A stretch of 41,089 bases of DNA. It comes from a virus. The notes below the pieces were generated by a model. The model saw only the letters and a list, made by a program, of their open reading frames with translations, was not told where the DNA came from and did no database searches. The stretch lies in IMG/VR virus record IMGVR_UViG_3300018481_000013, positions 1-41,089 of that record; one strand, given 5' to 3'. The position numbers and the translations under genes are program-made. Shown here in pieces: positions 1 through 18,465 of the stretch (the first letter of the stretch is position 1; each line of letters starts with the position of its first letter).

Positions 1-121
1 CCGAGTTCTCGGTCCGGGCGTCGATCGCGCGGCAATTGATTCAACAGGGCTCGGCGCGTGCTGCGTACGAAACGAAAGTGATAACGCCGATCGCGTCGGG
101 GGTGTCGGCCGAGTCGGCCGG
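1..121. repeat. Terminal direct repeat, left copy (contig closure overlap)
   Basis: Bases 1-121 are identical to 40969-41089. An exact 121-base terminal repeat with a gene running across it is what an assembler leaves when it reads round a circular or circularly permuted genome. It most likely marks assembly overlap and completeness, not a biological terminal repeat. Confidence 0.95.
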
Positions 122-296
122 TTGCTTTCGCGGGATCTCCTACCGTGACGTGTCTCTGTCTGACGCGGGATCGTCCGGAGTGGCTACCGCGGGCGATCGA
201 GAATTTTCAGGCTCAGACATTCGAGTCTCGCGAGCTCGTGATAGTGGCAAGCGGCGCGGACGTGCGGCGGCTGATGCCGTCGGATCCGCGGATTAG
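3..296 (+). CDS. 3' part of small head-associated protein (begins at 40902, crosses contig join)
   Basis: This is the continuation of the reading frame that starts at ATG 40902. The joined protein is about 120 residues. Its first 50-60 residues look like the short proteins often found after HK97 capsid genes (an N-terminal beta strand and a short helix ending LIQQGSARAAYE). The last 60 residues are Arg/Ser/Ala-rich, look less like natural protein, and overlap the next glycosyltransferase gene by 152 bases. Either the overlap is real or a base is wrong near the contig join and the true gene ends earlier. The N-terminal half is well supported; the C-terminal half is not. Confidence 0.5.
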   Translation, partial: EFSVRASIARQLIQQGSARAAYETKVITPIASGVSAESAGCFRGISYRDVSLSDAGSSGVATAGDREFSGSDIRVSRARDSGKRRGRAAADAVGSAD

Positions 297-744
297 ATAT
301 TTCCATCTCGCCGGCCGGCCGTTGATTGGACCGGCGCGAAATTTTGGATGCGAGCAGGCTCGGGGGGCGATCGTCGCGCATTGGGACGATGACGATTTCT
401 CGGCGCCCGGCCGGCTGGTCGATCAAGTCGAGCGGCTCGAGGGCTCGGGCAAAGCGGTGACGGGATACCGCACGATGCGATTTACCGACGGCGCGGGCTG
501 GTGGCTGTATCAGGGCCGGCCGCAATATGTGCTCGGGACTTCGCTTGTATACCGGCTGGATTGGTGGCGATCGAATCGGTTTCGGCCGCTGCAGGTTGGT
601 GAAGATTTTTACTTCGTGAAGGCCGCGGCGGCGGCCGATGAGCTCGCGATCGCCGATGCGGGCGAGCTGATGCACGCAACGATACACGCGCGGAACACTT
701 CGCCTCGGGCTCTCAATGGCTCGGCGTGGTCGCGGGTGGCCTGA
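145..744 (+). CDS. GT-A family (GT2-like) glycosyltransferase
   Basis: A 199-residue protein begins at GTG 145 with the typical GT2 first strand (TCLCLTRDRPEWLPRAIENF). It has an acidic HWDDDDF motif at residues 79-85, the place where GT-A enzymes bind the metal and sugar nucleotide. It should move a sugar from a nucleotide donor to an unknown acceptor in the cytoplasm. The codons just before GTG read S-P-T-V, which also fits the family start, but an upstream stop at 79-84 and no other start codon leave GTG 145 as the only choice. At about 200 residues it is short for GT2, essentially the catalytic domain alone. It is the first gene of the sugar cassette. Confidence 0.8.
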   Translation: MTCLCLTRDRPEWLPRAIENFQAQTFESRELVIVASGADVRRLMPSDPRIRYFHLAGRPLIGPARNFGCEQARGAIVAHWDDDDFSAPGRLVDQVERLEGSGKAVTGYRTMRFTDGAGWWLYQGRPQYVLGTSLVYRLDWWRSNRFRPLQVGEDFYFVKAAAAADELAIADAGELMHATIHARNTSPRALNGSAWSRVA

Positions 745-758
745 AGAAACATAACAAT

Positions 759-1928
759 ATGCCTCGATTAAATTCCGGCGTGCAAGGCTCGCCGATTGTG
801 ACAACCGTATTGCCGAAAGATCGCTTGACCAATGGCGTCGCGGGCTCTCCTGTGTTCGTGGGTCCGGTTGGCTCGGGTGTGCGGCGCTCGCCTGGCGTAG
901 CGGGCTCGCCGCGGCTGTTCTCCGCTACTTGGTACTTGGATACGAACGACGGCAACGACGGCAACCCGGGGACGGCTCCGGAGTCGCCTGTTAAGACTTG
1001 GGGCTCGTTGAGTGGGAAGGGACTAAAAACCGGCCACACGATCAAGGTCAAGAACAATTCTGTCGTGCCTCTAGCGACTATGTACGCTGATGGGCTGATC
1101 ATCGAAGCTTACGGCGATACAGGGGCAGCGCCGGTTATCGAGTCGATCGACGAGAACGGCTTTACTGAACCTACGGTAGCTGAAACGGTCACGGTGCAAG
1201 CTCCCGGAATACCAACAAGCGGACTTGTTGCCGCATGGGATCTTACGGGCTATAGCGCTGTGCAGCAAAGTATCGCAGGTGCTCACGGCACATCGTACGC
1301 GCTGCAATCCGGATCTACTTCGGGTGTGGACGGAGACGATCCGATCTCCGTCACAACCGCGGGAATGCAACTGACGGATTCAGGCGCGAATGATTTCCTG
1401 ACCGCGCCTACCGTGCCGGACACAGATTTACTAGGCGCTATTTCGCTTGTCGTTGTGATGGCGACCAATGGTTCCACCAATGGCCCAATTATCAGTAAAG
1501 CCGAGCGAACGCTCGGAGAGCTGACGCCAACTCCGTTTGCATTCATGCTCGATGTTTCAGGGAATCTCTACGTAGAACGCGGCGGTTCGGGCGCACGGCT
1601 TTTCACCGGACCCGCTACAGTGGCGACGGCGGATGCATTCAGGATGTACTCCGTAGTCTGCCCGAGCGGAATACAGAACGCGCCATCATTCTTTGTCGGG
1701 ACCACTAAGACAACAGGGACGGATACCGCAGGAACCGGGACAGGCTCGGCTTCCGGCACATCGAATCCTTTCCGTGTTGGAGTCGCGCCTGTGTTTACCG
1801 CGAACAACGGTACGACTCGTTATTCCTACATCTTTGTGTACTCGCGTGCTCTTTCCGATGCTGAGATATCGAACATCTATGCGGTTATGCAAACGCATAT
1901 GCAAGCCGTAGCGGTGACACTTCCCTAA
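759..1928 (+). CDS. Fibre/adhesin-like protein: beta-helix cap plus LamG-like domain
   Basis: The 389-residue protein starts at ATG 759, preceded by a GAAGAAA purine run. Residues 5-50 repeat the motif G-V-x-G-S-P three times. Residues 57-82 (WYLDTNDGNDGNPGTAPESP) match the N-terminal cap of right-handed beta-helix proteins, but no helix rungs follow. From about residue 140 to the end the pattern is that of a LamG/concanavalin-like jelly roll (GLVAAWDLTG start, FVYSRALSDAEISNIY end). There is no signal peptide. A virion decoration or fibre protein is likely, perhaps the acceptor or partner of the surrounding glycosyltransferases (inference). It lies away from the tail-tip genes. Confidence 0.65.
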   Translation: MPRLNSGVQGSPIVTTVLPKDRLTNGVAGSPVFVGPVGSGVRRSPGVAGSPRLFSATWYLDTNDGNDGNPGTAPESPVKTWGSLSGKGLKTGHTIKVKNNSVVPLATMYADGLIIEAYGDTGAAPVIESIDENGFTEPTVAETVTVQAPGIPTSGLVAAWDLTGYSAVQQSIAGAHGTSYALQSGSTSGVDGDDPISVTTAGMQLTDSGANDFLTAPTVPDTDLLGAISLVVVMATNGSTNGPIISKAERTLGELTPTPFAFMLDVSGNLYVERGGSGARLFTGPATVATADAFRMYSVVCPSGIQNAPSFFVGTTKTTGTDTAGTGTGSASGTSNPFRVGVAPVFTANNGTTRYSYIFVYSRALSDAEISNIYAVMQTHMQAVAVTLP

Positions 1929-1985
1929 TGAGGCGAATTGGGTCTTAGGCGAAACAAGGACTCTTTACTGTATGAGATTTATGAA

Positions 1986-2456
1986 ATGTTGAAGCTTAAC
2001 TTGGGCTGCTGCGATCGTCGTTTAGATGGTTTTATTGGGGTCGACGTGGTCGCCGGTCCGTTTGTTGACGTGGTCGCCGATCTTCGAAATCGCTGGCCAT
2101 GGGAAGATTCCGCGGTCGACGAAGTTCGGGCACACGACGTATTCGAGCATCTGCCGAATCGCATAGAGACGATGAACGAATTGCATCGCGTGTTGAAGCC
2201 TGGCGGGCGGGCAACGGTGGAAGTTCCCTCGGCCGCGCAAGGGGCCGGCTTCGCGCAGGATCCGACACACGTTTCGACCTGGTGCATGAATTCGTTTCAG
2301 TACTTCCGTGAGGGATCCTTCGCGCATCAGCGGTTGGCCGGCTTCTACGGGATCACGGCTCGCTTCAAGGTTCTGAGCCTGACGGCTCGGACGTACAAAG
2401 ACGAGTACGAAGACGTCGTCAAAATAACGGCCGTACTCGAGGCGGTGAAGTCTTGA
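1986..2456 (+). CDS. Class I SAM-dependent methyltransferase
   Basis: The 156-residue protein has SAM-binding motif I at residues 4-9 (LNLGCC), an acidic strand-2 end at D20, FEHL at 53-56 and LHRVLKPGG at 66-74, the usual Methyltransf_11-type layout. It should transfer a methyl group from S-adenosylmethionine to a small molecule or sugar; the substrate is unknown. ATG 1986 puts motif I at the very N-terminus as expected; a TTG at 1938 in frame is possible but adds residues unlike the family. Its stop overlaps the next start in a TTGA, so the two are probably translated together. Confidence 0.8.
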   Translation: MLKLNLGCCDRRLDGFIGVDVVAGPFVDVVADLRNRWPWEDSAVDEVRAHDVFEHLPNRIETMNELHRVLKPGGRATVEVPSAAQGAGFAQDPTHVSTWCMNSFQYFREGSFAHQRLAGFYGITARFKVLSLTARTYKDEYEDVVKITAVLEAVKS

Positions 2457-3232
2457 AACTGTCGGTGATCATCCTCTCGAAAGAGGTATCGAACCTGCTG
2501 CCGTGCATCGAGGCGGTTCGCCGGCATGAGCCTGAAGCCGAGATTATTGTCGTCGACGACGGGCTCGCGTCTCGACCTGAGTCGCAAGGGTTCCGTAATC
2601 CGGGTTTTCTAACCCGCTTTGTCAACGGCGTGAAGCCGTTCGTGTACGCGCGAAACGTCAATGTTGGATTACAAGAGGCCTACCGGCATACGGTCGAGTA
2701 CGAAACGTTTCAATCGCTCGGAATGCCACGGGGGCGGGTAATTATCTCCGACGAAAACCCGGACGGGGTCGTGCTGCTGAATGACGACGCGATTCTCGAG
2801 TCTCCGGGCGGGTTCTCTTTGCTCGCCGAGGCCGCGGCAGCCGACAAGTCGCTCGGGATGGTGGGCGGCACTACGAATGTGACGGGAAACCGCAATCAGA
2901 AGCGGCAAGCGGTCGGCCTGCGCGATGAACCGCGCATGATCACGTTTCTGTGCGTGTACATTCCGCGTAGCACGCTCGAGCTGTGCGGCGGGCTCGATGA
3001 GCGCTATGTCGGGTACGGATGCGATGACGATGATTATTCGTTTACCGTGCGGGCGCATGGGTTGAAACTGGCGGTGCACGATGGCTGCTATGTGGATCAC
3101 GGACGGTTAAAGAGCTCGTATCGTGGGGCGCCCGGCGCGTGCGCTGACTATCGGCCGAATTTGCAGCGGTTTATTAAAAAGTGGGGCTGTGACAATTGGG
3201 GCCGGCCGGACGGGGCGCGGTTGGCGCATTGA
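2453..3232 (+). CDS. GT2-like glycosyltransferase
   Basis: A 259-residue protein with an N-terminal nucleotide-binding strand (SVIILSKEVSNLLPCIEAV), VVDDG at 33-37, LLNDDA at 108-113 (the DXD-equivalent) and GLDERYVGYGCDDDDYS at 180-196, the acidic acceptor-side motif common in GT2 enzymes. It is full length for a single-domain GT2 enzyme. It starts with TTG at 2453 inside the TTGA that ends the previous gene and ends in another TTGA, which points to tight translational coupling. Donor and acceptor cannot be read from sequence. Confidence 0.88.
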   Translation: MKLSVIILSKEVSNLLPCIEAVRRHEPEAEIIVVDDGLASRPESQGFRNPGFLTRFVNGVKPFVYARNVNVGLQEAYRHTVEYETFQSLGMPRGRVIISDENPDGVVLLNDDAILESPGGFSLLAEAAAADKSLGMVGGTTNVTGNRNQKRQAVGLRDEPRMITFLCVYIPRSTLELCGGLDERYVGYGCDDDDYSFTVRAHGLKLAVHDGCYVDHGRLKSSYRGAPGACADYRPNLQRFIKKWGCDNWGRPDGARLAH

Positions 3233-3765
3233 AGCTTTTCATTTCTCCACATAACGATGACGAGACGCTTTTCGGGGCCTTCACGCTGTTGCGGGAACGG
3301 CCGTTAGTCGCGGTTGTCTTCGATTCGTTCGTGCAAGAGCGACGAGGATACGGCATTACGGCCGCGGCGCGGCGGGCCGAGACTCGAGCGGCGTGTGAGG
3401 TCCTGGGGGTGAGCTGCGGCTTCCTCGGGTTGCGGGACGATTCGCCGGATTGGCGCGCGGTGCGGTGGGCGCTTGCTGAATACAAGCGTTCGGGCGTGAC
3501 CGAAGTATGGGCGCCGGCTGTCGAGCGTGACGGGCATTTGCAGCATAACGAAGTGGGCGCGATCGCCGGCGAGTTGTTTCCGCGGGTGACGTACTACCTG
3601 ACTTACACTCGGACCGGCGGCAAGTCGACGGCGGGCCGGCTGGTACCGTTCGAGAATGCGTGGATCGGCATAAAGCTGCGCGCGCTGGCCGAGTATCGCT
3701 CACAGATAGGGCATGCGTCGACGGCCGAGCATTTCATTCGTGATCAACGCGAATATGTGGAATAA
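3229..3765 (+). CDS. PIG-L/LmbE-type zinc deacetylase
   Basis: The 178-residue protein carries the LmbE/PIG-L first motif as SPHNDDE at residues 6-12 (family form A-H-P-D-D-E) and the second histidine motif as DGHLQHNEVG at 101-110, with H103 and H106 as expected zinc ligands. Members remove the N-acetyl group from N-acetylhexosamine derivatives. In the motif the usual P is N9, a minor change. The start is TTG 3229, in the TTGA at the end of the preceding gene; a start further upstream would add Gly/Ala-rich residues not seen in the family. With five glycosyltransferases beside it, it probably edits an amino sugar. Confidence 0.82.
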   Translation: MKLFISPHNDDETLFGAFTLLRERPLVAVVFDSFVQERRGYGITAAARRAETRAACEVLGVSCGFLGLRDDSPDWRAVRWALAEYKRSGVTEVWAPAVERDGHLQHNEVGAIAGELFPRVTYYLTYTRTGGKSTAGRLVPFENAWIGIKLRALAEYRSQIGHASTAEHFIRDQREYVE

Positions 3766-4252
3766 CGACACGATTCGGGATCTCGAGCGGCGCTCGATCC
3801 GGTCTTTCGTCGCGCAACACAAGCAGTGTTTGAAGGGCCGCGTTTTGGATTTTGGGGCCGGCACGCCGACGACTTGCAGGACTCCGCAACCTTACCGCGA
3901 CTTGGTCGAGGGCGAGTATGTTGCTTACGACGTCGATAGTCCTAGCGTGTGGGGGCCTTGGGACGCAATTTTGTGCACGCAAGTAGTGCAGTACATTCCG
4001 GACGTTCCAAAGTTGTTATCTCGGTTTGAAGCGCAGCTCGTAGCGGGCGGATATCTGGTGATGACGTATCCGACGAATTGGGCCGAGGTCGAGGGCTCGG
4101 ACTTGTGGCGGTTTACGCGGGCCGGAATGGAACGGCTTTTGCACGATGCAGAGCTTGAGGTCCTCCACCATGAGCGGCGGGCCGAGGTGACGCTCGGCGG
4201 CTTCGCTTTTGCGCTCGGTTACGGTGTGGTCGCGAAAAAGGCCGGTTTGTGA
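3755..4252 (+). CDS. Class I SAM-dependent methyltransferase
   Basis: The 165-residue protein starts at ATG 3755 inside the end of the deacetylase gene (11-base overlap). Motif I is VLDFGAGT at residues 30-37, an acidic residue follows at D59, and DAILCTQVVQYIPD at 70-83 with LVAGGYLVM after it is the motif IV-V region of Methyltransf_11-like enzymes. It is a second, divergent methyltransferase in the cassette. A sugar or small-molecule substrate fits the neighbours; nothing suggests a DNA target (no DPPY-type motif, no DNA-recognition domain). Confidence 0.8.
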   Translation: MWNNDTIRDLERRSIRSFVAQHKQCLKGRVLDFGAGTPTTCRTPQPYRDLVEGEYVAYDVDSPSVWGPWDAILCTQVVQYIPDVPKLLSRFEAQLVAGGYLVMTYPTNWAEVEGSDLWRFTRAGMERLLHDAELEVLHHERRAEVTLGGFAFALGYGVVAKKAGL

Positions 4253-4791
4253 GGGTTTCGGCTGTGGTGGTGACGCGCGGAGACGTGGACCTTTCGCCGG
4301 TTGTCTCGACTCTCTTGCACTTTGACGAGGTGATCGTTTGGGATAACTCCAAACGGCGCGACGTGTCGGTCTATGGGCGTTTTCTTGGCGCGGCCGAGGC
4401 GCGTAACGAAGTTGTCTACGTGCAAGATGACGATTGTCTAGTCGACTCGGCCGCGGTAGTCGCGGAGTATCGGCCGGGGGTCGTTTCTTCGAATGTGCCG
4501 ATGGCGCGGCGGGCCTTCTACTCTGACGGGGTGACGCTTATCGGTTGGGGCGCAATCTTTGATCGTGCGATCGCCTGGGATGCGTTCGGGCGGTACTGGG
4601 AGCGCTTCGCGGCCGATGGCTTCTTTCAGAGGGAATGTGATCGCATCTTCACCGGGCTGTCCAAGTGTCGCAATTTCGAGGCGGGTCTCGAGCATCTCGA
4701 GTATGCCTCCGGATCCGATCGCATGGGCGCGGAAAAGCGGCATTTGTCGGACTTGGCGGAAGTACGGGGCCGGCTGAGGGCTATCCGATGA
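4249..4791 (+). CDS. Short GT-A-like glycosyltransferase
   Basis: The 180-residue protein opens with RVSAVVVTRGDVDLSPVVS and has a DNSKRRDV segment where GT2 enzymes have the nucleotide motif, then VQDDDC at residues 58-63 as the DXD-like motif. It is shorter and more diverged than the other cassette glycosyltransferases, and the C-terminal third is not recognisable. GTG 4249 lies in a GTGA overlap with the previous stop, and the gene ends in ATGA with the next. A role in making or attaching the same glycan is inferred from position. Confidence 0.7.
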   Translation: MRVSAVVVTRGDVDLSPVVSTLLHFDEVIVWDNSKRRDVSVYGRFLGAAEARNEVVYVQDDDCLVDSAAVVAEYRPGVVSSNVPMARRAFYSDGVTLIGWGAIFDRAIAWDAFGRYWERFAADGFFQRECDRIFTGLSKCRNFEAGLEHLEYASGSDRMGAEKRHLSDLAEVRGRLRAIR

Positions 4792-5405
4792 TTGACATTT
4801 TGTTTTTGACGCACGGGCGCACGGAGTTTATGCGTGAGAGTCTCGCGGCACTGCTGGCTAATACGGATTGGACGAAGGTCCGACGGCTGGTGATGTATGA
4901 CGAAGCGGTGGCCGGCCTCGGTGGTCCTGTGGCGGTCATGAATCACTACTTGAAAAGCGGCAACGTGACGCCGATCTTCGCCAAGATCGACGATGACACG
5001 ATGGTACCTCCGGGCTGGTTGGGCGAATGCCTGCAAGTGATGGAGGAAAACCCGAAACTCGATCTACTTGGGATCGAGGCGCATTATCCGGTCGTTGCCG
5101 GCGTGGCGCCGCGGAGTTACAAGCCGGCGCAGTTTATCGGCGGCATAGGGTTGATGCGCTCGAGTTGCTTCCGGTCGCTTCCGCGGGCGCAGGGGCGGTT
5201 TGGCTTCACGGCTTGGCAGGATACTAACGCGCAAGTTGTAAAGGGCTGGATTTCGCCGGCGCTGCCGGTCTTTCTGCTCGACCGTATACCGTTCGCGCCA
5301 TGGGCCGAGCATTCTCGAGAGTACGTTCGGCAAGGGCTTCAAAGAGATTGGCCGGCGTATGATCCCGCGGTCGACGGCGATAAGTGGGCATGGTGGCGGC
5401 CGTGA
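4788..5405 (+). CDS. GT-A-like glycosyltransferase
   Basis: The 205-residue protein begins IDILFLTHGRTEFMRESLAAL, a GT2 first strand and helix, and has KIDDDT at residues 66-71 as the DXD motif. MVPPGWLGECLQVM after it matches the helix that follows the motif in many GT2 enzymes. ATG 4788 overlaps the previous stop in ATGA. The C-terminus (PFAPWAEHSREY) is consistent with the acceptor-side part of the fold. Substrate unknown. Confidence 0.78.
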   Translation: MIDILFLTHGRTEFMRESLAALLANTDWTKVRRLVMYDEAVAGLGGPVAVMNHYLKSGNVTPIFAKIDDDTMVPPGWLGECLQVMEENPKLDLLGIEAHYPVVAGVAPRSYKPAQFIGGIGLMRSSCFRSLPRAQGRFGFTAWQDTNAQVVKGWISPALPVFLLDRIPFAPWAEHSREYVRQGLQRDWPAYDPAVDGDKWAWWRP

Positions 5406-6136
5406 AAGTTGTTGGCATGATGCGCTTGCGCAATGAGGCGCGATGGATTGAACGTGTCCTCGAGTCGATCCGGGGCGTATGTTCCGAGGTGCATGTCCTC
5501 GACGATCACTCGACTGACGGCACGGGCGATTTGTGCCGGGGCGCGGGGGCGATCGTCCACAATACGCCTTTTGCGGTTGGCCTAAACGAAACGCGCGACA
5601 AGAATTTTCTACTCGACCAGGTGCGCAAGAGTGCGCCGGAGTGGGTGTTGCATATCGACGGAGACGAAGAGCTCGCGGCCGATGGGCCGGCGCGTATTGC
5701 CGAGCTGGTGCGCGATCCCGCGGCGGTCTGCTATCACTTCCGAGTGCTGTATTTGTGGGACTCTCCCGAGCAATATCGGCGGGATGGCGTGTATGGGCGT
5801 TTTCGTCGTGAGTCGCTTTTCCGGCTGACTCGTGACCGTTTCTCGAGTACGCCAAACGGCGGAAACTTTCATTGCGGAAATTCGCCGCGGGAACTGCGGC
5901 GGCGATCGATTATTTCCGACGTTCGCCTATTGCATTACGGCTACATGGACGCGGCCGATCGAATTCGAAAGTATGGCTGGTATAACTCGCATGATCCGCG
6001 CAACGCTGCCGAGGATGGTTATCGACACATGGTGATCGGCGACGTGTTTCCTGCTGAGTCTGTCTTCCGGTTTGGCGGGCCTCTTGATTTGGCGCCCGTT
6101 TCAAGTTATCCCTCTGCGCTTTCTATCGCCGCATAA
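5402..6136 (+). CDS. GT2 glycosyltransferase
   Basis: The 244-residue protein has KVVGMMRLRNEARWIERVLES at its start (the R-N-E motif of the WaaE/glycan-core-like GT2 group), LDDHSTDGT at 33-41, and the DXD motif in HIDGDEE at 84-90. RLLHYGYMDAADRIRKYGWY near residues 177-196 is the late His/Tyr motif of this group. GTG 5402 lies in a GTGA overlap with the previous gene; an upstream start at 5384 is less likely. It is the last gene of the cassette; 26 bases later the neck genes begin. Confidence 0.86.
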   Translation: MKVVGMMRLRNEARWIERVLESIRGVCSEVHVLDDHSTDGTGDLCRGAGAIVHNTPFAVGLNETRDKNFLLDQVRKSAPEWVLHIDGDEELAADGPARIAELVRDPAAVCYHFRVLYLWDSPEQYRRDGVYGRFRRESLFRLTRDRFSSTPNGGNFHCGNSPRELRRRSIISDVRLLHYGYMDAADRIRKYGWYNSHDPRNAAEDGYRHMVIGDVFPAESVFRFGGPLDLAPVSSYPSALSIAA

Positions 6137-6162
6137 GTTTCTCGAAGTCTCAAAAGAAAAAA

Positions 6163-6801
6163 ATGGTTACGTACGGTTCGCTCAATTTGACCGAGGGCGC
6201 GTCGCCCGCTGCGACGTTCAACGAAGTGCTGTCGCTCGAGGCGGTTAAGAAGTTCTTGAATCTGCCGGAACGCTCGCCGATTGATGAGCTGGAGGACGCG
6301 GAACTCGAGGCGTTCATTATTGCGGCTCGCGATACCGCCGAGGGTGCGCAAGGGCGCGACTTGGTGCCGAAACAATACGATCTGTCTCTCGACTGCTTTC
6401 TGTCTTGCACGATCGCGCTCCGCGATCCGCTGGTGTCTGTCGACTTGGTGCGGTACCGCGATTCGGCCGGCGACTATTACGAACTCGAGGCCGACGTCGA
6501 TTACATTGTCGACACATCGAAGCATCCGGGCGTCATTCTGCCGGCATATGGCCGGAGTTGGCCGACGTTTACGCCGTGGCCGAGCTCGGCCGTGTTGGTG
6601 CGGTTTACCGCGGGCTATGCGGCGGATTCCGTGTTCTGGACGGCCGGGCCGGGCGTTCGAATTCGTCAAGGCATGTTGCTGTTGATTGGGGCTTGGTTCT
6701 CGAAGCGTATCCCGTTCCAAGAGGGCGCGACACCGATAGAGGAGCTGCCGTTTGGAATTTCGGCCTGCTTATCGGCCGGCGCTTTGCTGAAGGTGGCCTA
6801 A
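6163..6801 (+). CDS. Head-tail connector (phiE125 gp8 / HK97 gp6-like)
   Basis: The 212-residue protein follows the pattern of phage connector proteins: an N-terminal helical region (LSLEAVKKFLNLPERSPIDELEDAELEAFIIAARD), a central beta part (YDLSLDCF...LVRYRDSAGDYYELEADVDY) and a C-terminal helix. It forms the ring that joins the portal to the tail. It starts at ATG 6163 after an A-rich purine run. In most HK97-type phages this gene lies right after the capsid gene; here the sugar cassette separates them. Confidence 0.78.
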   Translation: MVTYGSLNLTEGASPAATFNEVLSLEAVKKFLNLPERSPIDELEDAELEAFIIAARDTAEGAQGRDLVPKQYDLSLDCFLSCTIALRDPLVSVDLVRYRDSAGDYYELEADVDYIVDTSKHPGVILPAYGRSWPTFTPWPSSAVLVRFTAGYAADSVFWTAGPGVRIRQGMLLLIGAWFSKRIPFQEGATPIEELPFGISACLSAGALLKVA

Positions 6802-6802
6802 C

Positions 6803-7159
6803 GTGCCTGCTGATAGGGCGCTGAATCCTGGTTGCTTGGTCCATCAAATCACTTGGCAACGAATCGATAAGACTGCTCGGAATTCGTTCAATGAGCCGAT
6901 CGCGGCGGTGGTCAATGTGCTGAGCTGTCGCGCCTCTGTCCAGCATGGGACGGGGCGTGAGGTTGCGGTCGCGATGCAGAGGTTTCCGGAGGCGCGGTAT
7001 GTGTTGCGGCAACACTTCGACGCTCGTTGTACGGCTGATCTGCGGGTGTCCTGGTACTACCGCGGCGTGGTTCGCGTGCTCGATGTTGTCGACGTGCAAG
7101 ACGACGGCGGGCTCGGCCGGTCGCAAACGATCATTGCAAAAGACTGGATTGAAAGTTAA
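6803..7159 (+). CDS. Head closure / head-tail joining protein
   Basis: The 118-residue beta-rich protein matches the head-tail joining (SPP1 gp16-like) type: a start near GCLVHQITWQR, then a central FNEPIAA loop and ARYVLRQHFD, then beta strands ending ITWY-like (VSWYYRGVVRVLDVVDVQD). It starts with GTG 6803, two bases after the previous stop, and ends in a TAATG overlap with the next gene. Function is inferred from order and fold pattern. Confidence 0.68.
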   Translation: MPADRALNPGCLVHQITWQRIDKTARNSFNEPIAAVVNVLSCRASVQHGTGREVAVAMQRFPEARYVLRQHFDARCTADLRVSWYYRGVVRVLDVVDVQDDGGLGRSQTIIAKDWIES

Positions 7160-7617
7160 TGGCTTCTCGCAATCCGGTGAGCGGCGGCGGCCGGAATAGC
7201 ATCGGCCGAGACATCAAGGGATTTTTCAAGGCCGAGGGCTTCGCGCAAGCGGCGAAGGCGCTCGACGGTGTTGTCGACGCTGTTGTCGGCGCTCGCATGA
7301 AGGATGTCTATTACGAGGCGGGCGTCATCTACCGCGATGAAGCAATCAGGCTCGCTCCGTATGATCCGGACCGGAAAGAGGGCGTGCACTTGAATGAGGC
7401 GATCTTCGTTTCCCGGGGTCGGGAATCGGAGCCTAACGTTTTGGTTGGCGTGCGGTATTTTCCGGGCGGCGCTCCTCACGCGCACCTTCAAGAGTACGGA
7501 TGGGCGGAAGGGCAAGCTCAACCCTACATGCGGCCGGCCGGCCAAAACGTCGGCGGGCAGGTCGCTGAGGTGATACGGGATGGGCTGATCGAGATTGTCG
7601 AGTCGATCAAGAAATGA
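7159..7617 (+). CDS. HK97 gp10-like neck/tail component
   Basis: The 152-residue protein has the HK97 gp10 layout: an N-terminal helix (FFKAEGFAQAAKALDGVVDAV), a middle helix with YRDEAIRLAPYDPD, and the late motif APHAHLQEYGWAEGQAQPYMRPA, where A-H-x-x-E-x-G and P-x-M-R-P-A are the family hallmarks. It lies between the head-closure and tail-terminator genes as expected. Confidence 0.88.
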   Translation: MASRNPVSGGGRNSIGRDIKGFFKAEGFAQAAKALDGVVDAVVGARMKDVYYEAGVIYRDEAIRLAPYDPDRKEGVHLNEAIFVSRGRESEPNVLVGVRYFPGGAPHAHLQEYGWAEGQAQPYMRPAGQNVGGQVAEVIRDGLIEIVESIKK

Positions 7618-8021
7618 CTATCGAAGAGAAGGTTTTCGCGGTGCTCGCGGGCGCCGGGGGCGTGGTGTCTTTGGTGCCTTCTGAGCGCATCATGCCGGAT
7701 GGCGTGTACCTGGGCCTGGCGCGGCCGTACATCAAGCATTTCGCGGTGGGTCTCGATCGCATGCGGCTGCACGATCGGCCGGCAACGCTCTGCAACTGGC
7801 CGTATCAGGTTTCCATCTTCGGCGAGTCGGTCGAGTCGATCACGGCGGTTCGGACGGCCGTAATCGAGGCGCTCGAGGCCTCGGTGAATCCGCATTTTAG
7901 CTTTACCGGTTTGGTACGGCTGCAGACGTCGGAATCTACCGACGTGCCGATCCTTGGGCAAGCGTTACTGCTCGATGCGTGGTTTGACGGGCTGGATCCG
8001 GAATCGCCGGTGCAGGATTGA
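7614..8021 (+). CDS. Tail terminator / tail completion protein (DUF3168-like)
   Basis: The 135-residue protein starts with a helix (TIEEKVFAVLAGAGGVVSLV), continues RIMPDGVYLGLARPYI and WPYQVSIFGESVESITAVRTAVIEAL, and ends in beta strands, the pattern of DUF3168 tail-completion proteins that cap the tail tube. ATG 7614 overlaps the previous stop in ATGA. Position before the tail-tube gene supports the call. Confidence 0.8.
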   Translation: MTIEEKVFAVLAGAGGVVSLVPSERIMPDGVYLGLARPYIKHFAVGLDRMRLHDRPATLCNWPYQVSIFGESVESITAVRTAVIEALEASVNPHFSFTGLVRLQTSESTDVPILGQALLLDAWFDGLDPESPVQD

Positions 8022-8028
8022 ATCGTTT

Positions 8029-8205
8029 ATGACTTACTGTCCCTGGTGTAAAGCAAGAGCGATCGACGTGACTTCGTCGAAAGATGCCAAAGGTTTCGAC
8101 AAGCGCGCTCGCTACATTTGTGTGGGCGTGACGTGCCACGAATGGCGCGATGGTGACGCTCCGGATCCGGCCGACGGCCGGCCGCGGCTGGTGGTTCTCG
8201 CTTAG
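8029..8205 (+). CDS. Ogr/Delta-like small zinc-finger protein
   Basis: The 58-residue protein has C4-P-W-C7, a TSS stretch, then RYIC31-VGVTC36-HEW. Spacing and surrounding residues resemble Ogr/Delta zinc fingers (CPxC ... Y-x-C-x(4)-C-x-x-x-[FW]), which in P2-like phages activate late transcription by contacting RNA polymerase. It is placed between tail terminator and tail tube, not in a control region. It may be a late activator that feeds back on its own operon, or simply a small zinc-binding protein. Confidence 0.6.
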   Translation: MTYCPWCKARAIDVTSSKDAKGFDKRARYICVGVTCHEWRDGDAPDPADGRPRLVVLA

Positions 8206-8316
8206 CAGTTCTCTTTTTCGAATTCTTAAAACCCCCTTGTCGATCTTCCGCGCGAATCGCGTGGACGTGCGTCCGTTTGCCGGTCGCAATTCCTAACTAG
8301 TTAGAGGTTATTCAAA

Positions 8317-8787
8317 ATGCAAGGTGGCATCCTTGGCAACGGAACAATCGTTGCCTATTCCGAGCTGTCTCCGATCTCATGGGTTGAGATCGAACAGCGT
8401 CGTGAGGTCGTCTTTCCTACAGAGGAAGCGGACAAGGTCGAAATCACGACTCACTCTCTCACCAACAAGCGCAAGCGGTATATGCCGGGTCTCGTCGACG
8501 TCGGTGACCCTTCCGTGTTGGTTCTTACCGATATGAATCCGGCGACATCGCCCGATCAGGCGTTTTTGCGCGCGGCGCAAAAGTCCGGCGAATCAATCCT
8601 GCTTCGCATCGAGGTACCGGTCGATCGTGAGCGGACTTCGTTCCTTGGGACCGAGCTCCAAGTCGGCGTGAAAAACTTCTCGCCTGACACTCCGATCGAT
8701 GGTGTTCAGACAACCCGGTTTACGTTCACGTTCGACGGTGAGGACATCACCGAAGACGAAGCCGTCGGCGCGTCTGAGATCGTCTAG
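8317..8787 (+). CDS. Major tail tube protein
   Basis: The 156-residue beta-rich protein begins after a good site (TTAGAGG, 8301-8307) and reads like a tail tube subunit: GTIVAYSELSPISWVEIEQ, KRYMPGLVDVGDPSVLVL (the GLxD motif of tail tube proteins), then a C-terminal TTRFTFTFDGEDI. It forms the hollow tube stacked along the tape measure. It sits before the tail chaperones and is followed by a strong hairpin, as is the capsid gene. Confidence 0.82.
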   Translation: MQGGILGNGTIVAYSELSPISWVEIEQRREVVFPTEEADKVEITTHSLTNKRKRYMPGLVDVGDPSVLVLTDMNPATSPDQAFLRAAQKSGESILLRIEVPVDRERTSFLGTELQVGVKNFSPDTPIDGVQTTRFTFTFDGEDITEDEAVGASEIV

Positions 8788-8810
8788 GCGTAATCGCTAC
8801 CAATCATCTA

Positions 8811-8848
8811 GAGGGCCTGGCCTGTGGCTGGGCTCTCGCTGTTTCCCG
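8811..8848 (+). terminator. Strong hairpin after tail tube gene
   Basis: Bases 8811-8822 pair with 8826-8837 over 12 positions (three G-T pairs) around a 3-base loop (TGT). The following bases are pyrimidine-rich, not a clean T-run, so it may be a leaky terminator or an RNA-processing/stability hairpin that sets tail tube above the chaperones. Confidence 0.6.
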
Positions 8849-8871
8849 ATTTCCTTTTCTCTCTCTTCTCT

Positions 8872-9300
8872 ATGAAAAACAGTACAGTTGTTCCCGTTTC
8901 TTTTACGAGTCCGGACGGGCTCGAGATCGTCTTACGCGCGACACTGGGCGCCCGTAAGCGGATTAAGGCGATGTTCGGCAAGGCCGATATCGCGAGCATT
9001 TTTGCATCTGAGGGCGACGGCTGCCTTCCGGACCTGGCGCATTGTCTCGCCTTCGATACCGACGGCAATCCGCCGGCCTGGACGAGTGCGGGCCTCGGCG
9101 AATCATTGTCGACCGAGGGCGCGACGGAGCTGCTCGGCTTCATTCTGTCCGCGTTCAGTCAAGGAAAGCTGGACCCAAACGTCGCGGCCGAGGTGTTGAA
9201 GGAGATGGTAGACGGGCCTCTCGGCGAAGCGATGCTGAGCTCTACACTGAGCGCTTTTGGATCGAGCAGTGGGCCTTCTGCCGAGCCTGTCTCGGCCTGA
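8872..9300 (+). CDS. Tail assembly chaperone, short form (gpG-like)
   Basis: The 142-residue protein (KNSTVVPVSFTSPDG...) sits between tail tube and tape measure, the universal place of the G/GT tail chaperones. These bind the tape measure and recruit tail tube subunits, and are not part of the virion. ATG 8872 is preferred; an in-frame GTG at 8824 lies inside the hairpin loop. Its 3' end overlaps a second open frame in the -1 register that gives the longer form. Confidence 0.75.
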   Translation: MKNSTVVPVSFTSPDGLEIVLRATLGARKRIKAMFGKADIASIFASEGDGCLPDLAHCLAFDTDGNPPAWTSAGLGESLSTEGATELLGFILSAFSQGKLDPNVAAEVLKEMVDGPLGEAMLSSTLSAFGSSSGPSAEPVSA

Positions 9301-9569
9301 CCGACGCTGAAATCTGGGACGGCTTGCTCGAGTGCGAGATCGACGCGCTTTCGCGAAACTATCGCGAAGCAAAACGGCGCGACGCGCTGATGCTGGCGCA
9401 AGCGTTTCACGATCCAAAGTCGCTGTCGGCCGGCGCGATGGATGATGTCGACGAGGGCGCGCAATCACAAGCGACTCTGTCGACTTGGGTACAGGCTGCG
9501 CGCGATCGCGCGCAACGTCGCAAGCTTTTGAAGCTCCAACAAGAGCAACAAAATAGAGCGGCTTCGTGA
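9255..9569 (+). CDS. Tail chaperone T domain, made by -1 frameshift
   Basis: This frame is open across the end of the short chaperone and has no convincing start of its own. It encodes FWIEQWAFCRACLGLTDAEI and then helical sequence to 9569, much like the T domain of other phages. A run of four T at 9255-9258 lets the zero-frame TTT codon (9256-9258) slip to TTT at 9255-9257, giving a G-T fusion of about 230 residues. The slip site is a candidate only: it is not a classic X-XXY-YYZ heptamer. Confidence 0.7.
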   Translation, partial: FWIEQWAFCRACLGLTDAEIWDGLLECEIDALSRNYREAKRRDALMLAQAFHDPKSLSAGAMDDVDEGAQSQATLSTWVQAARDRAQRRKLLKLQQEQQNRAAS

Positions 9570-9629
9570 CACCGCGAAGCCGTTCGTAAGTTCCGTATTC
9601 CTTTCCCCGCAAGTAAAGACCAAAAAAAC

Positions 9630-12600
9630 ATGTCTGGACGTTTAGGCGATTTGATGTTTCGTCTCGGCGCGGACGTATCCGGTTTTCGTGATGCGTTCCG
9701 CGACGCGGTCGAAGTGCTCGAGACTACCGAGAACAAAGCTCAACGTGTAGGCGCGTCGCTGGCGCGCGCGTTTGACAACATTGGCGCCGGCGACTCGTCG
9801 GCGAAGTTGGCGGCGCGCGCGAAGTCTTTGCAGGCGAGTTTCGAGCTGATCGAAAAGGCGCACAAAGAGGGGAAGGTTACAACGGCCGACTATGAGAAGG
9901 CGCAAGCCTCGTTAGTCGTGCAGTTGCAGAAGCTCGGGGGCGTCGTTCCTCCGCTGGTCCAAAACTTCGACCGGTTGGCGGATGCTCTTAAGGCTGTCAA
10001 GGTCGACGGGTCGCAGTTTGAAATTGGCAACAAAGTCGCCGATCTAAAGAAGAATCTCGATTATCTTGACCAGGCATACAAGGCCGGCAAGTTGTCGGCC
10101 GCGGATTTTGCGGCGGCGCAAAAGAGCGTAGGGGCCGAGCTCGACAAGCTTTCGCGTGGTGATTACACGGCCGGCGTCGACAAGCTCGCAAAGAAGTACG
10201 GCGAACTCGGGAACAAGCTGCAAGACGTTGGCCGGGTTCTCACGGTGGGTCTGACTGCGCCTTTGCTGGCGGGCTCGGCCGCGGCGCTGAAGGCTGCGGG
10301 CGATTACCAATCGCTCGAGATCGGTCTGCAGGCGGTTACGAAAGAAGCCGGGCCGCTGGAGAAACAGCTCCTACGGCTGAGAGAAGTTGCGAAACTTCCC
10401 GGGCTTGGCTTCAAAGAAGCTGTGCAAGGGAGCATCAATTTACAGGCAGCCGGCTTTAGCGCGGGCCTGGCCGAGCGGGGCCTGAAGGCTTTCGGAAACG
10501 CGCTCGCAACGGTCGGCAAGGGGCGCGCCGAGCTCGACGGCGTGATCACTGCGCTTTCGCAAATTGCCAGTAAGGGTAAGGTATCGGCCGAGGAAATCAA
10601 CCAGCTCGCCGAGCGGCTGCCGCAAATCCGTGTCGCGATTAAGAACGCGTTCGGCGAAGGGTTCAACGACGCGAAGGCCTTCGAAGAGGCCGGCATCTCG
10701 GCCGAGACGTTTATCGAAAAGATCATCGGCGAATTCGAAAAGCTGCCGAAGGCCGTCGGCGGTATCAAGAACGAATTCGAAAACCTGACCGACGAGCTCG
10801 ATCAAACGCTCGCCGAGGCGGGCAAGGCGCTGATTCCGTTCGGGACAGCGGCGCTCAAGGCTCTGCAGCCGTTGTTAGGCGTCGTCAGGGATGCGGCCGG
10901 CGAGTTTGCGCGACTCCCTGAGCCGGTTCAGTCGACGGTGTTCGCGTTGGGGGCTCTGGCTGCCGGCGCGGGACCGGCGCTTTATGCCCTCGGCGGGATC
11001 TCGAACGGACTGAAAGAACTCACGCCACTACTGAGCAAACTAGCAACGTCCGGGGCGCCGGCGGGGCAAGCGCTCGGCGCGGTCTCTGCGTCTGCGGGTC
11101 TGCTCGCCGGTAGTCTGGTCGCGGTTACGGCGGCGATCGTCGGGTTCTCGTTGTATGAGGCAACAGTCGGCGCGCTAGATTTCGCTGACTCGATGACGGC
11201 GCTCTATGAGGCGACGCATAAAGGCGAGAAAGGGGCTACAGCGTTCGAAGCGGCGATTAACGACTCAACTCCTGCGGTCCTAAACCTTACGAAAACGCTC
11301 GGCAATATGGCCGAGTACGCCAATGATCATTTTTGGGAGGCGATTGTACCCACGGCCGGTATGCGGGAGCGTTGGCAGTTGTTCGCGCTGTCGATCGAGC
11401 AAGCCGTCGGGGTGTTTCCGCTGCTCGAGGGGGCCGCGAAAAAAGCGCAACAGGGTGTTAACGACTCGATGCGCAAGATGGGCGAAGCCGCGATGCAGGC
11501 GCAAAACGGCAAGGGTACGGCCGCGGCCGTCAAGGCAAACATCGATTCGATGTATGCCGAGAAAGCGGCCAATATTCAGGCTCTCCATGTTGCGGAGGAA
11601 ACTCTAAAAGCGCTCAAGAAAATGAAGGCCTCGAAAGAGGAGCTGGCCGAGGCTACTCGGAAAGTGACCGAGGCGGAGCGGAAATTACATCCGAATCTGA
11701 CAGCGACGGGCGATACTGCCGGCCGGGCGGCGGGGAAGGTCGACACGTTGGCCGCGGCGATGAACAAGCTTGGCGTTAAGGGCGACGCTACGGACACCAA
11801 GCAATGGGCCGATGCGTTAGCCACGATCGAGAAAGCGTATAAACAGGGCAAGGTATCGGCTGAAGATTGGGCCAAGGCTCAGTCGGCAGCGTTCGAGAAG
11901 ATACACGCTGATCTGATCGCATTCGACAAACTCGTAGAGCGCAGGCAGGGGACGAAGAATGTCGCAGTCATGCGGCAGATGTTCCCGAATGCGTGGTTCG
12001 ACGACGCGAAGAAGGCGTTTGCCGAAACAGATAAACTCATAGCGCAATTCGGCAAGGTGGAGAGCGCCTCGCGCGGACTCCAGAATGTAAACTTCGCAAA
12101 GGATTTACTTCGGGACGTAGTGTCTCTTGAGGACGCGCTCAAGAGCGTGCGTGGCAATCAGGAGAGCCTGACTGAATCCGCCAGGAGATCTGCGGCGGCG
12201 TATCACGCTATCCAAGATGCCGTGGACGGGATCAGGCCGAATCCTCTGGGCGCTACCCAGTTTCAGGCGGATATAGCGAATATCGAAGCAATCTCCAGGA
12301 AGATAGCTGCACTACGCCAGGAAGCTCCGATCAATCCGTTTAATACGGCCGCGCTGCAGGAAGCGCAAGAGCGAATCAAGCAGGTTAAGTCTGACTTGGC
12401 GAGCATTCGCACGCCAGAGGACGCGTACGCCGAGCTCGGGCTCAAATCGATCAAGGATCTTCAAATTGAAGTCGATCGCACGGCAAAAGCGTATGAGATC
12501 CTCGCGACAAGCGGAACGGCGAGCATAGGCGATATAACGCTTGCGCAACGAAAGCTTATCGAAGAACAAATCGAGCTCGCCAAAGCGGCCGGCGAACCGT

Positions 12601-14990
12601 GGGGGCATCTCGAGGTCCAGCTCGAGCGGGTTAATGCTCGGCTGGAGACAATCGCACAGCTCAAAGGGTTCGATAATCTGACGGCGTCGGTTGCCAACTT
12701 TGTGCAGACGTTTAACTCGGAGTTTGGCAAGTTGACCGATGGGGCCGGCGATGCGCTATCAGAGGCGCTCTTCAATCCCGAATCGCTGGGGCCGAATCTT
12801 ACAAAGCTCTGGAAAACCTTCAAGGATTCGATGAAGGATGCTCTGGGCGATGCTCTGCAGACGGCTTTTATCGATCCGATTACAAGGGGCCTAAAAGACG
12901 CGGTTTCCGGTATCGTTGGCGGCTTTCTCAAGAACTTGGGCGGCGGGATAGCCGGCAACCTTGGCGGGATTCTGGGCGGCGGGAATACCGGCGTCATCAT
13001 GAACGCGACGAGCAACGCGACGCGCGGCGCGCAAAATGTCGCGAATGCAGCAATGAACGTGCCCGGTGGTGTGTTGTCAAAGGGCGCCGGCGTGGCCGGG
13101 CAAGCGGCCGGCATGGGCGTTTCCGCAATAACCGGGATGGTTACGGGCGGGATTTCTGCCGTGTCCGACGTGATCTCTAACTTTCAATTCAAGGCGATGA
13201 ACAAGAGCCTTGACTTGATTGAAAAGGCGACGCGATACACAGAGGCGCACACGCTTCATATCCTCGAAAAGCTCAACGAGTACATACCGGCTTTGAAGGA
13301 CATTAACACAACTTTCTATACCTACATCGGCGCGTTCGGTACGCATATGGCGACGGTCGAAGGTATGGCGACGGACGTCAAAGACCTGGCGCTCGGGATG
13401 GCGTCGGCGCTCGAGAATTTGACGGCCGCGATCCGCGGCATTGACGCCGGCGACGTTTCGCTGAACGGAGAAGCGATCGAGGTCGGGCTCGCAAGCGATG
13501 AGCTCGCCGAATTAATCAACGTGACGCGGTCCGGGTTGGCCGATGTTGTGTCGGCGATCATTGCGCAGTCGGACCGGACTGTCGGCGTTCTTGGGGCAAT
13601 TGCCGAGACGGGCGCGGTCGGCAAGATAGACGAGCTGCAAAAGGAGCTACAGAATATCGTTGCTTCGAACGGTACGATCGATGCGAGTCTGACCGGTCTT
13701 CGTGAGCAATTGAAATCGGCCGAGGGCGCGACGCGCGACGCTCTTATCCAACAGATACAGTTACTCGAGAGTCAACAGGCTATGAATAATAGCCGGTCGA
13801 CGATTATCGAGGGTGCAATCACCGCGATAAAGGACAGCGGCGCGAAAGCTGCGCAGTCGTCGATTCAGGTGGCCGAGAAGGTCGGAGAATTGACAACGCA
13901 GTTAGCGCAACTGCAGACTGACCGAGACTCGTTTTTGAACAGTCTGCCGCCTGAGCTGCGGGCGGCGATCAACGATGGAAAGCTCGCGGAACTGACGGCG
14001 GGCCAGGATCAGTTTGCTATTGACGCGGTTGCCGAGTATGTGCGGATCAAGACGGCGATCGACGTAACGAACTCGACGCTTAGCGCGCTTGGGGTTTCGA
14101 TCGAGAAGGCGGTCGCAACTAAAGAAGAGACGAAGGCTAGTCCTACAAACGCGAATTCCGGGGCGATGAATGTCGAGACGATGGAGTTTGACCCGTCTGG
14201 CGTGAGGACGAATATCGTCCCGACGCAGGGGGGCTATGACACGTCCGCTTTGCTCGCGGCGCTGTCTGCCTTCCAAGATAGGGTCTCGCAGTACTGGGAA
14301 CGGTTGTTCGAGGTTCTGGCGCAGGGTCTACCGATGGCCGGCGCGGTACCGGTGGAGAAGTTAGAGGGAACGGTCGAAGGTGCGAATGAAGAGCTGACGA
14401 ACGCGGTCGAAGATATAGGCGACGACTCGGAACGAACGGCTGAGGGCGTCTACCAGACGCGATCGGCCGTGTGGGAAGTGACCGGGGCCGTTGAGTCGAT
14501 GGCGTCAGAGTCGCGCGGCGCGTTTCGGAGCTTTACGCGGGCGATTGAGGATAGCTCGCGCGAAATCACGACGGCTGTTCTCAATTCAGAGCAGGCGGGT
14601 ATATCTCTCGGCGGGGCGAGCGCTGTTCGTGCACGGTCCGATGTGGGGGCGGTGCGTGAGGTTGTCGAGAAACAGCTTCCGGGGGTCATGTCGGAGGGTT
14701 GGAACAGTGGCGAGATTGAAGGATGGAAAAACAACCCGGACGATCCGAACGAGCCTGTGAAATGGCGTAAAAAGTGGCTCCCCGGTACGCCGGCTCATCC
14801 GGGGTGGACCTGGGAGCAAACCCATCCAACAGCTCCTATGGACTTTGGTCCGGAGTGGAAGCCTCTCGAGTTCAGCTATCCAAAGCAGGAACGGCCGGTG
14901 CTGAATCTGACCGTTGAGAACGTGATCAACGGCCGGAACGTTGGTAACTCGATTTTCGAGAATCATCGTTATGAAGGCGGCTGGGTGTGA
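9630..14990 (+). CDS. Tail tape measure protein
   Basis: At 1786 residues this is the largest protein of the phage. Residues about 190-350 match the tape-measure N-terminal domain (LAGSAAALKAAGDYQSLEIG, then ISAETFIEKIIGEFEKLPKA). Two hydrophobic stretches follow near 435-455 and 480-505, then long coiled-coil regions. A repeat of the form [LI]-x-K-A-Y-K-x-G-K-[LV]-S-A-x-[DE]-[FW]-A-x-A-Q occurs three times, near residues 70-95, 142-165 and 727-752. It sets tail length; at the usual 1.5 angstrom per residue the tail would be about 0.27 micrometre. It ends in GTGA with the next gene. Confidence 0.95.
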   Translation: MSGRLGDLMFRLGADVSGFRDAFRDAVEVLETTENKAQRVGASLARAFDNIGAGDSSAKLAARAKSLQASFELIEKAHKEGKVTTADYEKAQASLVVQLQKLGGVVPPLVQNFDRLADALKAVKVDGSQFEIGNKVADLKKNLDYLDQAYKAGKLSAADFAAAQKSVGAELDKLSRGDYTAGVDKLAKKYGELGNKLQDVGRVLTVGLTAPLLAGSAAALKAAGDYQSLEIGLQAVTKEAGPLEKQLLRLREVAKLPGLGFKEAVQGSINLQAAGFSAGLAERGLKAFGNALATVGKGRAELDGVITALSQIASKGKVSAEEINQLAERLPQIRVAIKNAFGEGFNDAKAFEEAGISAETFIEKIIGEFEKLPKAVGGIKNEFENLTDELDQTLAEAGKALIPFGTAALKALQPLLGVVRDAAGEFARLPEPVQSTVFALGALAAGAGPALYALGGISNGLKELTPLLSKLATSGAPAGQALGAVSASAGLLAGSLVAVTAAIVGFSLYEATVGALDFADSMTALYEATHKGEKGATAFEAAINDSTPAVLNLTKTLGNMAEYANDHFWEAIVPTAGMRERWQLFALSIEQAVGVFPLLEGAAKKAQQGVNDSMRKMGEAAMQAQNGKGTAAAVKANIDSMYAEKAANIQALHVAEETLKALKKMKASKEELAEATRKVTEAERKLHPNLTATGDTAGRAAGKVDTLAAAMNKLGVKGDATDTKQWADALATIEKAYKQGKVSAEDWAKAQSAAFEKIHADLIAFDKLVERRQGTKNVAVMRQMFPNAWFDDAKKAFAETDKLIAQFGKVESASRGLQNVNFAKDLLRDVVSLEDALKSVRGNQESLTESARRSAAAYHAIQDAVDGIRPNPLGATQFQADIANIEAISRKIAALRQEAPINPFNTAALQEAQERIKQVKSDLASIRTPEDAYAELGLKSIKDLQIEVDRTAKAYEILATSGTASIGDITLAQRKLIEEQIELAKAAGEPWGHLEVQLERVNARLETIAQLKGFDNLTASVANFVQTFNSEFGKLTDGAGDALSEALFNPESLGPNLTKLWKTFKDSMKDALGDALQTAFIDPITRGLKDAVSGIVGGFLKNLGGGIAGNLGGILGGGNTGVIMNATSNATRGAQNVANAAMNVPGGVLSKGAGVAGQAAGMGVSAITGMVTGGISAVSDVISNFQFKAMNKSLDLIEKATRYTEAHTLHILEKLNEYIPALKDINTTFYTYIGAFGTHMATVEGMATDVKDLALGMASALENLTAAIRGIDAGDVSLNGEAIEVGLASDELAELINVTRSGLADVVSAIIAQSDRTVGVLGAIAETGAVGKIDELQKELQNIVASNGTIDASLTGLREQLKSAEGATRDALIQQIQLLESQQAMNNSRSTIIEGAITAIKDSGAKAAQSSIQVAEKVGELTTQLAQLQTDRDSFLNSLPPELRAAINDGKLAELTAGQDQFAIDAVAEYVRIKTAIDVTNSTLSALGVSIEKAVATKEETKASPTNANSGAMNVETMEFDPSGVRTNIVPTQGGYDTSALLAALSAFQDRVSQYWERLFEVLAQGLPMAGAVPVEKLEGTVEGANEELTNAVEDIGDDSERTAEGVYQTRSAVWEVTGAVESMASESRGAFRSFTRAIEDSSREITTAVLNSEQAGISLGGASAVRARSDVGAVREVVEKQLPGVMSEGWNSGEIEGWKNNPDDPNEPVKWRKKWLPGTPAHPGWTWEQTHPTAPMDFGPEWKPLEFSYPKQERPVLNLTVENVINGRNVGNSIFENHRYEGGWV

Positions 14991-16918: not shown

Positions 16919-16929
16919 GCGTGCTCTAA

Positions 16930-17850: not shown

Positions 17851-17870
17851 AACAACTTCATAAACAACGA

Positions 17871-17904
17871 AGGCCTCGGCTATGGACCGGGGCCGTTTTT
17901 ATTT
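17871..17904 (+). terminator. Rho-independent terminator 1 of the tail operon
   Basis: GGCCTCGG (17872-17879) pairs with CCGGGGCC (17887-17894) over 8 bp with one G-T pair and a 7-base loop, followed by GTTTTTATTT. A clear intrinsic terminator 20 bases after the LamG gene. Confidence 0.88.
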
Positions 17905-17920
17905 AACTTTAACAAGAGAG

Positions 17921-17952
17921 GGGGCGGTTTGCTTTGCGGGCCGCTTTTTTTT
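17921..17952 (+). terminator. Rho-independent terminator 2, sister of the capsid-gene hairpin
   Basis: GCGGTTT (17924-17930) pairs with GGGCCGC (17938-17944), using three G-T pairs, around loop GCTTTGC, followed by eight T. It shares its G-run, loop and arm layout with the hairpin after the capsid gene (40850-40872), where the arms are CTC/GAG instead of TTT/GGG. Confidence 0.75.
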
Positions 17953-18099
17953 GGGTCGAACGCATAAAGGGCTGGCTATGATGACTGTAAAGCCGTGACA
18001 ATTCTATCGATCGTACTAGCCGGGCTCGCGTGCACGACGAAGGCAGCCGCGGCCGATCCTTGACTTAAAAGAGATGAGCGCATCGTTCGACGCGTGGTA
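17953..18099. other. Gap between convergent late and early operons
   Basis: No gene is firmly supported here. A 6-codon frame (ATGATG at 17978) ends in a GTGA that opens a 22-codon frame, 17995-18063, reading MTILSIVLAGLACTTKAAAADP, which resembles a cut-off secretion signal. It could be a remnant of an exported protein or chance. Confidence 0.3.
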
Positions 18100-18407: not shown

Positions 18408-18465
18408 ATGTCCGGATGGTAACAAAACACTTGGTTTTTGTTCGCGCGCGAATTACCATCGGGTT

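Follow-up and report, generated by a model that had tools for sequence, protein, structure and literature searches.

A glycan-enzyme cassette between the capsid and adaptor genes of an environmental HK97-type phage: a candidate virion-glycosylation island with a putative +1 frameshift link to a small capsid-adjacent gene

The contig analysed here, from an uncultivated soil-type phage (IMG/VR record IMGVR_UViG_3300018481_000013; 41,089 nucleotides in full, the window), carries, between the genes for its major capsid protein (MCP) and its head-tail adaptor, a cassette of sugar-modifying enzymes (g1 to g9) preceded by a small gene, g0, which overlaps g1 in a different frame. Its sequence makes it reasonably likely that the cassette is a modular, virion-glycosylating island whose leading enzyme is tethered to the g0 protein by +1 programmed frameshifting. 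The contig is circular: the terminal 121 bases at its right end repeat the initial 121 (unit length 40,968 bp), so that the capsid gene at the right end immediately precedes the cassette at the left end. The gene order is terminase, portal, protease, capsid, cassette, adaptor, head closure, neck and tail. An earlier note on this DNA had placed the cassette (145-6136) at the junction of capsid and connector genes, and the flanks agree across the circle: an HK97-type MCP upstream (39626..40828, on the plus strand, as are all features of the locus; Pfam Phage_capsid, 2.7e-35; phrog_10) and the adaptor downstream (6163..6801; phrog_442, 5.6e-14).

Eight of the nine cassette genes encode enzymes. 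Profiles, motifs or structure confirm their assignment, already proposed in the note, to five GT-A glycosyltransferases, two methyltransferases and one PIG-L deacetylase. g1 (145..744; GTG start, or entry from g0 by frameshift) is a family 2 GT-A glycosyltransferase (PF00535, Glycos_transf_2, 3.3e-14), as is g9 (5402..6136; PF13704, 1.6e-7, and synteny), usually the final cassette gene in relatives. The GT-A glycosyltransferases g4 (2453..3232) and g8 (4788..5405) stayed below threshold in single-sequence Pfam searches and owe their assignment to family profiles, which matched beta-4-GalT7 (6e-5) and chondroitin synthase (8e-5) for g4, and chondroitin synthase (1e-7) and heparosan synthase (1e-6) for g8. 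g7 (4249..4791) has no Pfam match; its AlphaFold model (predicted local distance difference test, pLDDT, 95) matches the GT-A enzymes GalNAc-T2, TarP and K4CP with a Foldseek probability of 1.00. Two S-adenosylmethionine methyltransferases are encoded by g3 (1938..2456, start at 1938 or 1986; PF08241, Methyltransf_11, 2.3e-9; 11-member family aligned) and g6 (3755..4252; PF13489, Methyltransf_23, 4.2e-9). The N-deacetylase g5 (3229..3765; PF02585, 4.4e-8) is of the PIG-L/LmbE type, with an invariant HNDD motif and a family profile that matches LmbE-type deacetylases such as BshB1 and diacetylchitobiose deacetylase. In alignments of relatives, retrieved with the g4, g5, g8 and g1 proteins as queries, the metal-binding acids are invariant in every family aligned, as DXD-type acids in g1, g7, g8 and g9 and as NDD in g4.

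The remaining gene, g2 (759..1928), had been read as a LamG fibre protein. This identity was not confirmed: Pfam and PDB gave no laminin-G or concanavalin match, and no relatives were found among the viral contigs searched. g2 is best described as a fibre-like or unknown protein, its only match being to phrog_4390, of unknown function (1.4e-6). The real LamG protein of the window, with a Laminin_G_3 domain, lies after the tail genes (16930-17850).

The last seven genes, g3 to g9, are joined, as the note had it, by six successive overlaps of 4, 4, 11, 4, 4 and 4 nucleotides, and the cassette products look soluble, none having a 19-residue segment whose Kyte-Doolittle value exceeds 1.55. The description of the locus as one unit holds for these overlaps, but a terminator-like hairpin with a 13-pair stem and a T-rich tail (40847..40875), in the interval between the capsid gene and g0, divides the capsid gene from the cassette. 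Of 45 relatives, 22 have such a hairpin after the MCP gene, where shuffled sequences predict 1.6, and the PMG1 record annotates a terminator at the same place. The position of the hairpin suggests that capsid and cassette are probably expressed at different levels.

The small gene g0 (40902..296) was overlooked in a linear reading because it crosses the contig ends. Its 5' part occupies 40902..41089 and its 3' part 1..296 (120 residues in all; stop codon at 294-296), and g1, in the +1 frame, overlaps it by 152 nucleotides. g0 is conserved between capsid and g1, with the consensus start MRLIANRQLxGxYGTVxAGQEF, and a g0-like sequence is visible in contig L002 although the MCP-adaptor gap there has no open reading frame (ORF) of transferase length. 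In profile searches it matches phage families without a known function: phrog_2616, weakly (0.0019 in the window, 3e-6 in contig L122), and DUF7210/DUF7302, below threshold. In-frame fusions of g0 to a transferase occur naturally in L085/L095, L113 and L050. The g0-g1 fusion of L113 folds as GT-A in a structure model, in which confidence for the g0 part is no more than moderate (pLDDT about 70-80).

The frame relation between g0 and g1 recurs widely. At 67 of 69 loci g1 lies in the +1 frame of g0, with an overlap of mostly 137-143 nucleotides. A TTT immediately precedes the first conserved g1 codon in 48 of 51 representatives (<85% nucleotide identity), against 23% predicted from codon usage, and the zero-frame codon after this join-site TTT is CGT in 47, giving the shift motif UUU_CGU. 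The three exceptions, the window among them, have TTT CGC or TTT CGT 1 to 7 codons upstream. In keeping with the UUU_Y class of shift sites, all 51 carry a g0-frame TTT at the join or at most 7 codons from it, with C next in nearly all. In bacteria, UUU_Ynn is known to be prone to +1 shifts, and the influenza site is UCC_UUU_CGU (PMC5009743). The candidate site in the window, TTT_C, lies at 126..129 (g0 frame TGC TTT CGC), the g1 frame being open from 85. No ATG, GTG or TTG start is available to g1 in 16 of the 51 representatives. Strong Shine-Dalgarno pairing (<= -5 kcal/mol) is rare upstream of g1 (10%); by the same measure it is also not strong at g0 starts (27%). Sequencing error as the source of the frame change was rejected in view of the recurrence of the frame relation in 67 loci here and 74 in a second set.

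This second, independent set belongs to the first group of relatives and has 32 representatives. At 74 of its 75 loci a sialyltransferase-like protein is encoded after a g0-like gene, in the -1 frame relative to it, and in 29 of the 32 representatives the overlap holds, at one conserved place, an in-frame slippery heptamer of the X_XXY_YYZ class (A_AAC_CCN, C_CCA_AAC/G or C_CCT_TTC/A), against 8.0 expected from synonymous resampling (maximum 18 in 100,000 runs). Protein constraint alone would be hard to accept as the cause of differing heptamers at a single place. The sialyltransferase-like gene lacks a start in 20 of the 32, and downstream RNA structure is modest (mean z -0.95). Whether two unrelated glycosyltransferase families have been joined, by opposite shifts (+1 and -1), to one class of small capsid-adjacent protein in HK97-type phages appears evenly balanced.

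The phages D3, PMG1 and vB_Pae_U7 carry C_CCA_AAG in the overlap and also have a GTG start available. D3 was considered as proof of a missing start and dropped, a GTG lying upstream in its sialyltransferase-like frame. The unshifted g0 products of the -1 set (L020, L206 and others) end in a basic AT-hook-like tail, for example RRRGRPSA in D3 orf6.5; the Pfam AT_hook match of the L020 protein is not significant (0.07). In phage P1 (L227, 1242-2001), the small gene pmgN shares 59 nucleotides, in a different frame, with the sialyltransferase-like pmgO, possibly a third case of the g0-transferase arrangement. P1 pmgO was set aside as evidence, since the main text of the P1 paper does not treat it.

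Several observations weigh against a frameshift. In the window the usual shift site is TAC, not TTT, and the TTT CGC sits five codons upstream of it; g1 also has a GTG there, from which separate initiation is possible. No downstream RNA structure was detected at the +1 site (mean z 0.0). The loci are related, so the +1 and -1 counts are not independent, and in L082 and L105 g1 has a start of its own and the transferases follow the adaptor. TTTC would be partly forced if phenylalanine were encoded in both frames; such coding, however, itself requires translation of the g1 frame upstream of the g1 start. A rival reading is that g0 and g1 simply overlap and that g1 starts, unshifted and by translational coupling, at GTG or an unusual codon, the virion still being modified. 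GTG does stand at the conserved first g1 residue in 34 of the 51 representatives and in the window, and D3-like phages have an upstream GTG in the sialyltransferase-like frame, the one chosen by the annotators of PMG1. This explanation nevertheless seems unlikely: it leaves without a start codon those representatives of both sets that lack one despite a conserved N-terminal motif, and it accounts neither for the fixed place of differing heptamers in the -1 set nor for the in-frame fusions. In addition, the phenylalanine codon before the GTG is kept as TTT, though it would be unconstrained if g1 began there, which speaks for translation entering the g1 frame further upstream. Programmed frameshifting appears very probable for the g0-g1 family, and for the window itself somewhat probable.

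The scan of relatives at this junction that the note had called for found the cassette whole, partial, varied inside or positioned after the adaptor. With the capsid protein as query, capsid and adaptor were found together in 55 other contigs, separated by 0.8 to 4.3 kb. Most of these gaps hold a sialyltransferase-like protein, a weak family 2 glycosyltransferase, methyltransferases (Methyltransf_23, FkbM) or unknown genes, and in most relatives examined the MCP-adaptor junction holds glycosyltransferase or methyltransferase genes. All eight enzyme genes occur at the same junction and in the order of the window in L083 (MCP-g1-g3-g4-g5-g6-g7-g8-g9-adaptor). Dozens of contigs read portal-protease-MCP-g1...g9-adaptor, with g1 first, g9 last and a variable interior, which in some relatives includes a DegT sugar aminotransferase. 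In L082, L086, L090 and L105 the cassette genes follow the adaptor. The recurrence of the gene set in order was judged far beyond chance, and gene content and order indicate that the cassette is a movable, editable module. That such a set is unique is not supported, given the complete set of L083, the partial sets in dozens of contigs and the precedent of mycobacteriophage Corndog discussed below.

g1, searched alone against 50,697 phage records, gave no match covering 80% and six weak matches, all to gut phage records; this search revealed no sequence kinship of g1 to mycobacteriophage glycosyltransferases. Among 396 Acidobacteriota genomes, g1 relatives occur in 11, mostly within long multi-domain ORFs. 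One relative lies at the end of a 193-kb Candidatus Sulfopaludibacter contig, the rest of which carries bacterial-looking genes. In L085, a single ORF of 481 residues (5688-7133) merges g0, g1 and g4. L124 (8726-12157), from a Proteobacteria metagenome-assembled genome, encodes a 1,143-residue ORF with g1-, g3-, g4-, g8- and g9-like domains adjoining ORFs with eCIS_core domains, which places the same glycan enzymes at a possible injection-system locus. Fibre or collagen-like proteins with secretion-signal-like N-termini lie in or beside the cassette in L083 (11567-13165), L082 (9073-9747) and L087 (958-5519).

The likely target of the cassette is the virion. The earlier suggestion of a pathway that builds and edits a glycan, probably for the virion, is supported by the junction, the soluble products and the links to g0, with the virion as target inferred from these features. 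Two points speak against it: no acceptor protein was identified, and the MCP has no obvious Ser/Thr-rich tail. Temperate phages commonly alter host envelope glycans by means of gtr cassettes, and the enzymes could instead modify the host envelope, for superinfection exclusion or serotype conversion; the window does encode a serine recombinase, and one bacterial contig carries a related phage. However, gtr serotype-conversion cassettes comprise a GtrA flippase and a GtrB bactoprenol transferase, whereas the window cassette has no such Pfam matches or membrane segments and lacks any membrane-spanning protein, flippase or polyprenyl-linked transferase. Its place is in the head operon rather than by the integrase, and it overlaps a capsid-adjacent gene or is fused to one; an envelope target appears quite doubtful. 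Hypermodification of phage DNA appears highly improbable. Phage glycosyltransferases acting on hydroxymethylated bases are known (cited in PMC12619734), but no hydroxymethylase, TET-like or thymidylate-synthase-like gene was found among the 29 main ORFs scanned across the window, and neither the location of the cassette nor its linkage to g0 fits such a role.

In the proposed reading, the cassette forms a modular island of late genes whose enzymes glycosylate a head-proximal virion protein, of head or neck, and then edit the glycan. The soluble GT-A enzymes would use host nucleoside diphosphate sugars to assemble a short O-glycan, from which the PIG-L enzyme would strip N-acetyl groups and which the two methyltransferases would cap. 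At least in relatives, g1 may be made as a minor fusion to g0 through a +1 shift at UUU_C, so that one ORF would yield plain g0 as well as a g0-transferase able to ride to the capsid, g0 itself presumably residing in or on the head. With a terminator following the capsid gene, the whole cassette would be expressed at a lower level. The glycan might benefit the phage through protection, adsorption or stability.

The nearest published case is that of the Corndog-type (cluster O) mycobacteriophages, in which an O-methyltransferase, two glycosyltransferases and a putative N-acetylglucosamine transferase lie between portal and protease and have been proposed to modify the capsid (PMC4351075). Like the window, Corndog combines an O-methyltransferase with several transferases within the head operon; unlike it, the genes occupy the portal-protease junction, the host is actinobacterial, and neither a PIG-L deacetylase nor a frameshift link is mentioned (PMC4351075). 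The nearest demonstrated chemistry is that of the Che8/Rita mycobacteriophages, in which glycans on capsid and tail-tube proteins are reported to have been shown experimentally (Freeman 2023, as cited in PMC11256854 and PMC12619734). These share with the window phage-encoded glycosyltransferases, the feature of mycobacteriophage-type glycosylation cassettes, which the window has as five GT-A enzymes. The glycosyltransferases of Maravista, a relative, are reported to lie near the 3' genome end, and the deacetylase and methyltransferases distinguish the window from Che8/Rita. For the shift itself, Listeria phage PSA offers a precedent of +1 programmed frameshifting in structural genes, but its shifts occur on proline codons and extend structural capsid and tail proteins (PMC5009743), whereas the present motif is UUU_CGU and would add an enzyme. 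The YopN-TyeA UUU_Y +1 shift and influenza PA-X (UCC_UUU_CGU) use the same shift tetranucleotide in unrelated genes (PMC5009743). A similar arrangement is that of orf6.5-orf7 in Pseudomonas phages D3/PMG1, where a g0-like gene after the MCP overlaps a glycosyltransferase gene and PMG1 has its annotated terminator; it differs in its sialyltransferase-like family, -1 frame with C_CCA_AAG, available GTG start and single transferase. No report of a frameshift-linked glycosyltransferase was found in the literature searched, whose coverage excluded subscription papers and preprints. The cassette type is already precedented, and it is the putative frameshift-linked start of the cassette that is new.

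Elsewhere in the window, which has no near DNA match in INPHARED, the large terminase subunit occupies two overlapping frames (35753-36703 and 36685-37335) where relatives have a single ORF (for example L106, 562-2190); the reading frame is disrupted or the assembly is in error. A single minus-strand ORF (18799-20463) joins a DNA N6/N4 methylase to a restriction-endonuclease-like domain of the Mrr type.

So far, it is mainly in mycobacteriophages that glycosylation of phage virions has been demonstrated. If the proposed reading is correct, such glycosylation would extend to a large environmental group of HK97-type phages, at least one of them on an Acidobacteriota contig, and may be widespread in environmental phages; the presence of enzyme genes between capsid and adaptor would thereby be explained. 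Transferase annotations in these phages would often be truncated or wrongly started. D3, as a classical cultured phage, offers a test. Frameshifting that yields a structural protein with an enzyme tail would be an added mechanism, and would represent a general means of dosing a modifying enzyme and tethering it to the assembling virion.
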